Shown piece by piece: positions 31,152-54,482 of a DNA stretch of 64,000 nucleotides; the stretch's first letter is position 1; each line of letters opens with the position of its first letter. The notes beneath the pieces were generated by a model, which saw nothing but the letters and a program-made list of their open reading frames with translations, ran no database searches and was not told where the DNA came from. The DNA is from Eggerthellaceae bacterium (lineage in GTDB: Bacteria; Actinomycetota; Coriobacteriia; Coriobacteriales; Eggerthellaceae): assembly GCA_017434045.1 (NCBI GenBank), contig JAFRGA010000103.1, positions 1-64,000 of the forward strand, in the 5' to 3' direction. The translations under genes and the position numbers were made by a program.

Positions 31152-32199
31152 AACGAGAGGCGGTTTAGGAAGAGGACTTGGATCGCTGCTAGGTGGAGGA
31201 CCTGAAGGAGGTTTTCCCCAGCATCCTGCCCCTCCGGCACCCACTGTCAGTTCCGATAGCCAGGAGGCTCCTCTAGAAAAAGAGGAAGAACAGGTTGAGC
31301 AACCTGTAGAAGTCGTTCAAGCAGAGGACTTGAACATAACTACCGAGGATAACGTCACGATTAAGCGTGTTGTCGAGCGTCAGGCCTTGACGCCTCAAGA
31401 GCAGTCTTCAGATGACAATGCTCCAACCGATGAGATTGACATCAACTTGATAGAGCCCAATCCCGACCAACCTCGAAACAACTTCAAGAAAGAGGAACTT
31501 GAGGAGCTGGCGGAATCTATCAAGCGGAACGGCCTCCTATCCCCCATCCTCGTACGCGAGCATGAGGGCAAGTACCAGATAATCGCAGGTGAAAGGCGCT
31601 GGCAAGCTTGCAAGAAATTGGGGATGAAGAAAATACCCGTTCGCGTGAAGGAAGCTGACGACGATGAGACGATTATCCTCGCGCTGATCGAGAACATCCA
31701 GAGGAGCGACCTCAATCCAATCGAGGAAGCCTACGGGTATCGTCGCATGATGGAACGCGGCAAGATGACCCAGTCGGAAGTAGCCCAAGCGGTTTCAAAG
31801 GGCCGCACTACCATCACCAACTCCCTGCGTTTGCTCGAGCTTCCCGAAGACGCCCAACAGCTCTTGTTCGAGGAGCGTATCACCGCTGGCCATGCACGTG
31901 CCATTCTTTCCATACCCACGAAAGAGGGCCGCCGCAAGCTCACCGACAAGCTCGTGAACGAGCAGTTGTCGGTACGTGAGGCAGAAAACCTGGCGCGATT
32001 GCTTTCCGGAAAGAAGAAGAAGGAGACGGTGACGAGGGAACCGGCTCCGAAATCCTACAAGACCGTTGCCCGCGCTCTAAGCGACTCACTTGAAACCGAG
32101 GTTAAAATAAAGAGCGTTAAAGGCGCCAGTCACATAGAGATCTCGTTCAAGGATGAAGCGGAACTGCAGCGCTTGTTCAGGATCATCTCGAAAGCTTAA
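31144..32199 (+). CDS. parB: Chromosome-partitioning protein ParB/Spo0J
   Basis: 351 residues from a GTG overlapping the parA end. It starts with the short basic MAKTRGGLGRGLGSLLGGG that stimulates ParA in relatives, then a low-complexity acidic linker, the CTPase/ParB box (GERRWQACKKLGMKKIPV, with ENIQRSDLNPIEEA), a helix-turn-helix (SQSEVAQAVSKGRTTITNSLRLL) and a C-terminal dimer domain. It binds the three parS sites in this window. Its 3' end overlaps the convergent rlmN by four bases. Confidence 0.95.
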   Translation: MAKTRGGLGRGLGSLLGGGPEGGFPQHPAPPAPTVSSDSQEAPLEKEEEQVEQPVEVVQAEDLNITTEDNVTIKRVVERQALTPQEQSSDDNAPTDEIDINLIEPNPDQPRNNFKKEELEELAESIKRNGLLSPILVREHEGKYQIIAGERRWQACKKLGMKKIPVRVKEADDDETIILALIENIQRSDLNPIEEAYGYRRMMERGKMTQSEVAQAVSKGRTTITNSLRLLELPEDAQQLLFEERITAGHARAILSIPTKEGRRKLTDKLVNEQLSVREAENLARLLSGKKKKETVTREPAPKSYKTVARALSDSLETEVKIKSVKGASHIEISFKDEAELQRLFRIISKA

Positions 32200-53536: not shown

Positions 53537-53627
53537 CCAGCTCAGATGCAGTAGCGTTATTGCGAGCGGCCCGGTTTTCCGGGCCGCTTCGCGCTTTGCA
53601 GACCGCTTTGCGCATTGGAGACCGACC

Positions 53628-53720
53628 GCCCAAGGGGTGAGCCGCTTCCGAAGGCGGGCAGCGAGATGGAGTGCGATGCGAAAGATTACCGCCGGAGGGC
53701 TGGAGGCGAACCCCTTGGGC
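53628..53720. repeat. R3 element after the activase gene
   Basis: The ends are GCCCAAGGGGTGAGCCGC and GCGAACCCCTTGGGC; the interior holds TTCCGAAGGCGGGCAGC and TTACCGCCGGAGGGCT. Same orientation as the copy at 34599-34719. Confidence 0.8.
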
Positions 53721-53740
53721 GGGCAGCGGCCGGGCAGCCG

Positions 53741-54282
53741 TGCACTTCCCTTCGATTCCTGCACGATGCCGTGCATTTCCCCCGAATCCTTGCATCGGCG
53801 CGAACTCGTGCAAGGACACAGGCGAAGTGCACGTCTGCCTGCAGGAAAATGGCGGAAATGCACGCCGAAACGGGCGTCCGGCGGGCTTTTCGACGTGCAC
53901 TTCCCCGCTTTCCTTGCACGAGATGAAGCCCCTGTAAGGAATCGGGCGAAGTGCACGTCATCCTGCAAGAAAACACGGGAAGTGCACGGCGCGGATTCGG
54001 AGGGCCGCAAGGATTCCCGCGAAGTGCACGGCGCAAGTGTGGCCGGCTGCAGGAAAAGCGGGGAAGTACACGCGAGCGTTAGAGCTAGGCCCTTTCCGTA
54101 CAATTCCCCATCATCCCTGCGTTTGAAAGATTTCATGCAGCAATTCGGGGGAAATGTACGTCGAACTGCAAGGATGATAGCGAAATGAGCGGAAAACTGC
54201 GTGCTGAGCACCCTGGAAAACGTTCATTTCCAGCATATCTCTGCACGAGTTTTTCAAGGTGCAGCAAATGCGGGGAACTGTA
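53741..54282. repeat. Array of fourteen 23-bp elements in both orientations
   Basis: Every unit is 23 bp with consensus TGCAAGGA-N5-GCGAAGTGCA or its complement. Starts: forward type (TGCACTTCC... ) 53741, 53772, 53896, 54099, 54223; reverse type 53809, 53840, 53933, 53964, 54006, 54048, 54136, 54167, 54260. Ends are best conserved, the middle varies. Gaps depend on orientation: same-direction neighbours 8 or 19 bases, forward-then-reverse always 14, reverse-then-forward 33, 28 or 33. Forward-reverse pairs form 60-base hairpins. Details are given in the findings. Confidence 0.85.
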
Positions 54283-54482
54283 CGGAAAAGGCCGTGCGGA
54301 CGAGTCGGACGGACCCTGCGGAAGCGGCTCACCCCGCCGGGCGGGCGGCCTGTCAGAAGGGCCTTGTGGTGTTTTGGCAGGTCAGCCCGCTCAGCCTGTC
54401 ACGAGCTCGGGTTTTGTGCCAGGTAGCCTGCGACAATATCTGATAGCATGGGAACAGTCGGCAATAGAGAGATGGGTTCTTG

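Follow-up and report, generated by a model that had tools for sequence, protein, structure and literature searches.

An array of fourteen directional units between an activase-like gene and rsmI

We investigated a 64,000-nucleotide stretch of DNA (the window; contig JAFRGA010000103.1, positions 1 to 64,000) from the draft genome of an Eggerthellaceae bacterium (assembly GCA_017434045.1, hereafter the home genome, G000; 2.22 Mb in 103 contigs, 76.7% completeness), in which an acyl-CoA dehydratase activase-like gene and rsmI flank an array of short repeated units in both orientations. A weight-matrix scan of the window placed exactly 14 units of 23 bp at 53741..54282, separated in order by gaps of 8, 14, 8, 33, 14, 8, 19, 19, 28, 14, 8, 33 and 14 bp. 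The original prediction, which had given this number of units and their order and gaps, was right to the base; its F orientation is the minus strand here. At the threshold used for the array, the matrix had zero matches in 116 kb of Markov-1 resampled sequence.

The units follow the consensus TGCARGRA-N5-GNGAARTGCA, with a CG after the final TGCA in almost every case, giving a true unit length of 25 bp. The unit is directional and bipartite, combining, in the species of the window, a left box TGCARGGA with a right box GAAGTGCACG, and differences such as G19/A19 separate two unit subfamilies.

Ten of the 14 units form two modules with identical geometry. Module A (53772..53955, plus strand, exactly 184 bp) consists of five units in the arrangement -14+8+33-14+, where signs give the strand of each unit and numbers the gaps: U1 (53772..53794, minus), U2 (53809..53831, plus, with AACTCG just before it), U3 (53840..53862, plus; its counterpart is displaced by 11 bp in sister species G002), U4 (53896..53918, minus) and U5 (53933..53955, plus). 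An extra unit lies 8 bp outside this module (53741..53763, minus). Three linker units on the plus strand follow module A, the first after a 31-bp step from the preceding unit (53964..53986) and the other two after 42-bp steps (54006..54028 and 54048..54070). Module E (54099..54282, plus strand), likewise exactly 184 bp long and belonging to a different subfamily, closes the array with U1 (54099..54121, minus), U2 (54136..54158, plus), U3 (54167..54189, plus), U4 (54223..54245, minus) and U5 (54260..54282, plus).

A genome-wide family with a conserved 184-bp module

The array belongs to a family that recurs across the home genome. An exact search with the degenerate unit returned 80 matches genome-wide against 0 for the reversed control, and the original consensus with three mismatches allowed returned 128 against 8. 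The 16 arrays that were fetched (the one in the window and 15 other stretches) contain 182 units over threshold, among them a stray unit at position 32146 of the window. The proposed search for further copies in the genome and its relatives spoke strongly for the original prediction, yielding approximately 180 units at home and diverged modules in sister species. The recurrence of the spacing classes was also borne out, in that a few shared spacings are found across the 16 arrays and again in sister species. Gap classes are nearly uniform across the arrays, at 8 or 19 bp between units of the same direction, 14 bp for -+ neighbors, and 33 or 28 bp for +- neighbors; the gaps listed for the home genome include 56 ++ gaps of 8 bp, 42 -+ gaps of 14 bp, 25 ++ gaps of 19 bp and 20 +- gaps of 33 bp, the remainder being nearly all singletons.

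The common core of these arrays is the five-unit, 184-bp module. Alignment of 19 module copies over 204 columns contained just one 1-bp gap. An indel-tolerant sequence model built from these copies found 24 modules, 23 in the home genome and one in species G009, and the matched length equaled the model length in 23 of them, with the remaining one 1 bp shorter; since a model that tolerates indels finds equal lengths, the length conservation is not due to the choice of copies. Module A, itself one of the copies in the model, is the model's second-best match in the genome (E 2.5e-46). The spacers between the units of a module are only 54–63% identical, and at least 225 spacer substitutions on the module tree stand against the single 1-bp indel. 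A full array opens with a subfamily A module, continues through linker units that vary in number and follow one another at 31 or 42 bp, and closes with a subfamily E module; in several arrays, end modules flank variable inner units in this way, as in BOX elements.

Same-direction units are spaced by whole helical turns

Across three species, units of the same direction lie 30–32, 41–43, 52–53, 62 or 73 bp apart, which extends the one-turn difference between same-direction gaps noted at the outset to a comb of approximately 31, 42, 52, 62 and 73 bp. At a period of 10.5 bp, the 139 pooled same-direction distances gave a phase of R=0.92, and the 22 distinct species-distance classes gave R=0.70 (p about 2e-5), although both figures make the distances look more independent than they are, given the common ancestry of the copies and the treatment of neighboring values such as 30, 31 and 32 as separate classes. 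Since the modules are related by descent, some recurrences of a spacing were simply inherited. The comb of distances, combined with the one-turn shifts between species described below, few as these are, is a stronger argument for helical phase than the pooled statistics.

Sister species keep the geometry while the unit sequence changes

We searched for the family in related genomes, all of which are fragmented drafts, and found arrays in genus members G000, G002, G005, G007, G009, G010 and G013, whereas a 313-kb sample of G012 showed none. The model built from the home species matched 22 times in G002 (best E 6e-11), 7 times in G013, 6 times in G005 and more weakly elsewhere in the genus; with stricter filters, it matched nothing in 248 additional genomes of the order. 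A model from nine G002 modules matched G013 (E 5e-12) and the home genome (E 5e-10) and, with stricter filters, no further genome among 138 genomes of the family. An exact two-unit pattern had zero matches in named genomes, because adjacent units seldom both fit the pattern. Among the genomes searched, the array family thus occurs in a single genus of rumen Eggerthellaceae. One window protein has its closest named relatives in Eggerthellaceae/Coriobacteriaceae, the nearest, 91% identical, coming from a RUG-series (rumen) metagenome-assembled genome (MAG) and another, 81% identical, from a roe-deer MAG. Among open-access papers, we found no description of such arrays in Eggerthellaceae or Coriobacteria.

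The sequence of the unit differs from species to species. The right box, GAAGTGCACG at home, is GGAAGTGCGC, GATGTACG or CCATGGACG in sister species, and the left box is TGCANNGATANCGG in several relatives as opposed to the TGCARGGA of the home species. Full units read approximately TGACAGA-N6-GGAAGTGCG in G002, TGGCAGGATACCGGGGAAGTGCGC in G013, TGNTGGAAATCGGGCTTGATGTACG in G005 and TGCACCGATACCGGGTCCATGGACG in G010, whereas those of G009 are closely related to the home units and form a module that is likewise 184 bp long.

The module geometry is retained across these differences. Measured between outer unit ends, the module reads -63+ 31 + 30 -63+ in the home genome, -64+ 31 + 29 -64+ in G010 and -62+ 30 + 30 -63+ in G005, and the same spacings recur at a second G010 locus, which was picked out of a 337-kb sample by its unit sequence, without use of the model. 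In G002, the total length of the module is unchanged and U3 has moved by 11 bp; in G013, the U2-to-U4 distance is 10 bp longer and a sixth unit faces the third. One locus in G005 and another in G007 have -73+ in place of -63+, making the pair one turn longer; G007 and the -73+ variants are each represented by no more than one to three loci. Three places at which the word search had missed a unit were inspected, and in each a diverged unit lay within 1 bp of the position predicted by the spacing grammar.

The third unit shows further variation. Its right box is palindromic in G005 (loci L086 and L088) and G007 (L323 and L328), reading CGTACATGTACG and TGCACATGTGCA, and would therefore be readable in both directions; at the same place in G013, two units face each other.

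Could the spacing have been kept by common descent alone, through neutral tandem or segmental duplication of old sequence? The modules clearly share ancestry, and unequal crossing over can give 31- and 42-bp steps. Such duplication does not readily account for a module in which at least 225 spacer substitutions accompany one 1-bp indel, for a geometry that is retained in species with a different unit sequence, or for length changes between species that amount to whole helical turns, and we consider it exceedingly improbable.

Arrays are intergenic and occupy different sites in different species

All 16 fetched arrays are intergenic, with units in both orientations. For the 13 arrays with called genes on both sides, the flanking genes are convergent in 4 cases, tandem in 5 and divergent in 4, as expected if intergenic sites were chosen blindly. 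A promoter or terminator role was rejected on account of this unbiased orientation. No array position conserved between species was found: the proteins encoded next to the arrays of G002 and G013 had no match among those encoded next to arrays in the home genome, apart from one weak match at 28% identity. The intergenic space between the activase-like gene and rsmI spans 943 bp in the window and 60–140 bp in most readable relatives. Given these unshared positions and the short intergenic space of the relatives, the arrays either postdate the separation of the species or turn over fast.

The same observations, namely, different intergenic sites in each species and extra DNA where relatives have a short intergenic space, are also what commends the main rival to the platform interpretation developed below, in which the arrays are non-autonomous, transposon-like elements of the MITE kind and their units are binding sites for a transposase encoded elsewhere, as in the multi-site ends bound by MuA and TnsB. 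Bipartite sites of 22–25 bp are typical of such multi-site transposases, and a site sequence that changes together with, by inference, its reader is compatible with this origin. The arrays, however, appear to lack fixed ends, stopping at different units and differing in length, the shortest (113 bp) being truncated by a contig end and the longest reaching about 900 bp; their flanks gave no readable target-site duplication, the exact insertion ends not being legible; and no transposase gene was found beside the arrays inspected. The phage, plasmid and virus collections contained no copy of the array, and nothing in them marked the arrays as a plasmid or phage iteron or centromere. We therefore regard a transposon-end identity as somewhat unlikely, and it could be the platform itself seen from the side of its dispersal.

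Paired units do not compensate as RNA hairpins would

The -+ pairs can be folded on paper, and the original prediction had described compensating changes in hairpin partners and suggested a structured transcript. We compared the centers (positions 9–15) of paired units with those of shuffled partners and found that true partners match no better: 0.526 versus 0.517 for U1-U2 and 0.376 versus 0.454 for U4-U5 in the home species, and 0.544 versus 0.585 for the -+ pairs of G002. RNA hairpins with compensation were thus rejected in two species. Single units showed no folding of their own either: six consensus sequences, drawn from five species, did no better than their shuffled versions.

A consensus fold from RNAalifold contains 10 pairs that change on both sides, which could be taken to favor a structured RNA or a hairpin-built transcription terminator or attenuator; these changes arise because two subfamilies are set by the unit consensus rather than by partner identity, and the covariation term contributes just -1.85 of -42.9 kcal/mol. 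The variable centers show no covariation, runs of same-direction units are unable to pair, and divergent flanking genes are as common as convergent ones. A comparison with described RNA families also came out negative, with no Rfam 15 family over the gathering threshold and sub-threshold matches only, mostly to miRNA families. As partner units do not compensate, the hairpin or RNA reading is not supported; neither the compensating changes nor, considering also the unbiased orientation of flanking genes, the structured transcript could be upheld, and we judge an RNA function very unlikely.

No link between the arrays and a RAYT transposase was found

The arrays have several traits in common with REP, REPIN and BIME hairpin doublets, which are moved by RAYT (Y1) transposases: units inverted across a short spacer of constant length, an intergenic location, a mosaic layout and a species-specific sequence. 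RAYT genes are described as always having two of their REPs as flanks (PMC2817692). The home assembly holds two Y1 transposase genes, one IS200-type and one RAYT-like. The RAYT-like gene (locus L040) encodes 252 aa, scores 57.3 bits against NF047646, under the cut-off of 80, and resides on an 8-kb contig (G000:C73), amid seven copies of a different palindrome, AGCCCAAAGAGGA-N3-TCCTCTTTGGGCT, with which it constitutes an ordinary REP/RAYT system. Seven further members of the genus also have this palindrome; in the home genome, it is restricted to the 8-kb contig, which may accordingly be a binning error, foreign to the genome.

In the proposed check for a co-occurring Y1 transposase, no array units were found in the fetched flanks of either home Y1 gene or of the Y1 genes examined across the genus, although the home assembly, at 77% completeness, may lack a RAYT that the genome encodes. 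Y1_Tnp had no match in G009, which is 96% complete and has the module, or in G005 and G007. Furthermore, the array unit has no stem of its own, and partners are uncompensated. The REP/REPIN/BIME reading is thus largely refuted, and transposition of the pairs by a RAYT is improbable, although the likeness to a REP/BIME mosaic that had been proposed for the array holds as an analogy, that is, for a dispersed, intergenic and modular build.

A predicted platform for an ordered protein complex

Among the three options that had been put forward for the array, namely, a REP/BIME-type mosaic, a structured transcript and a multi-site DNA-binding platform, the last appears to be the best supported, considering the turn-quantized spacings, the conserved length and a geometry that outlives the site sequence. 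We propose, with a probability of roughly 0.55, that the array is one copy of a modular DNA element dispersed through the genome, and that its units serve as sites for a sequence-specific protein that forms an ordered complex. Same-direction neighbors are whole helical turns apart (31, 42, about 52, 62 and 73 bp), placing them on the same face of the helix, and opposed neighbors favor a single outer-end separation of 63 bp, which becomes 73 bp in rare variants. The five-unit, 184-bp module is the conserved core, which extra units join in 31- or 42-bp steps, and the element would spread to new intergenic sites while protein and site sequence change together in each species and the geometry is held. 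The units, their spacing grammar, the conserved length, the geometry across species, the intergenic dispersal and the absence of partner compensation were observed directly, whereas protein binding, oligomerization of the protein and its co-evolution with the sites are what we infer here from the DNA; a geometry kept while the sequence changes is expected when protein and sites change together.

More tentatively, and with greater reserve than for the platform itself, we suggest that selection might hold the geometry, that is, direction, helical phase and the five-unit module, while the recognized sequence is replaced in each species and the protein and approximately 180 sites change specificity jointly. 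We know of no described interspersed repeat family that holds its geometry while the recognized sequence changes. If this suggestion is correct, at least six natural site sequences would be set on one spatial frame within a single genus of gut bacteria, so that the contributions of sequence recognition and of architecture to a bacterial nucleoprotein complex could be told apart. The arrays would also allow one to ask how specificity changes in a protein whose chromosomal sites number well over a hundred, and would add a class of interspersed repeats independent of palindromes and RAYT transposases.

In build, the array family is nearest to BIMEs, REPINs and BOX elements, and represents interspersed mosaic repeats with a novel property. 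BIMEs, composed of REP units in Escherichia coli and other bacteria, are intergenic, dispersed mosaics with both orientations and regular spacing (PMC2817692, PMC3733652). The arrays, too, are intergenic, dispersed mosaics of a short, regularly spaced unit in both orientations, and BIMEs are known or proposed protein-binding platforms, as we suggest for the arrays. In contrast to BIMEs, the array unit is not a palindrome, lacks the GTAG/CGTC-tagged stem and has no link to a RAYT, and the arrays contain long same-direction runs, spacing by whole turns, and a geometry kept despite change of the unit. The basic copy of a REPIN is an inverted pair with a conserved spacer (PMC3116915), a feature shared by the arrays, whose core, however, is not a doublet but five units over 184 bp, with uncompensated arms.

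BOX modules are 45–60 bp or longer and predicted to fold as RNA. The BOX elements of Streptococcus pneumoniae and S. suis, known only from streptococci, are modular, with two end modules around variable tandem inner repeats, and are species-restricted and intergenic (PMC3049150). Modules A and E resemble such ends around variable inner units, whereas all parts of the arrays are built from one directional 25-bp unit.

At the level of individual sites, the closest counterparts are found in Mu attL/attR, Tn7 ends and plasmid iterons, which consist of directional, helically phased and clustered sites of 19–25 bp. Array units are also directional, helically phased and clustered, but these counterparts are present singly on a replicon or confined to both termini of an element, whereas the arrays number approximately 16 or more, are intergenic and appear to lack fixed ends.

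Other repeats beside the arrays and in relatives

A second repeat, unrelated to the array units, was observed around the array. This repeat B, with the core GGGTGAGCCGCTTCCG, has about 47 copies in the home genome (with up to two mismatches) and often forms an imperfect hairpin of approximately 100 bp. One copy, a long imperfect hairpin, lies beside the array at 53626..53722, and a second copy of the core lies on its other side at 54315..54350 (minus); further positions in the window are 28829, 34499, 34620, 43793 and 43829. Repeat B occurs within about 150 bp of at least 7 of the 16 arrays, far above chance.

Several relatives carry repeats of other kinds. In species G011, the 25-bp sequence TGACATAAAGTCGGGTTTTTTGTCA is repeated in 89 copies (loci L261–L275), often as inverted pairs 61 bp apart; it was considered as a member of the array family and dropped, given that the pairs face the opposite way and lie at other distances. 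The closest named relative, MAG RUG14206, has one inverted repeat, whose 41-bp stem encloses a loop of 14 bases (L129:970-1065). The roe-deer relative has, at the same intergenic site as the window array, a perfect hairpin with a 39-bp stem and a 30-base loop (L102:5384-5491), which carries CTGTCA and CACTTCC motifs resembling the units of G002. In Collinsella, the same activase gene is followed by the inverted repeat TTTCGGAAGTGCGG, whose loop measures about 90–100 bases (L115:8656-8786, L116:5710-5839 and L120:8657-8785).
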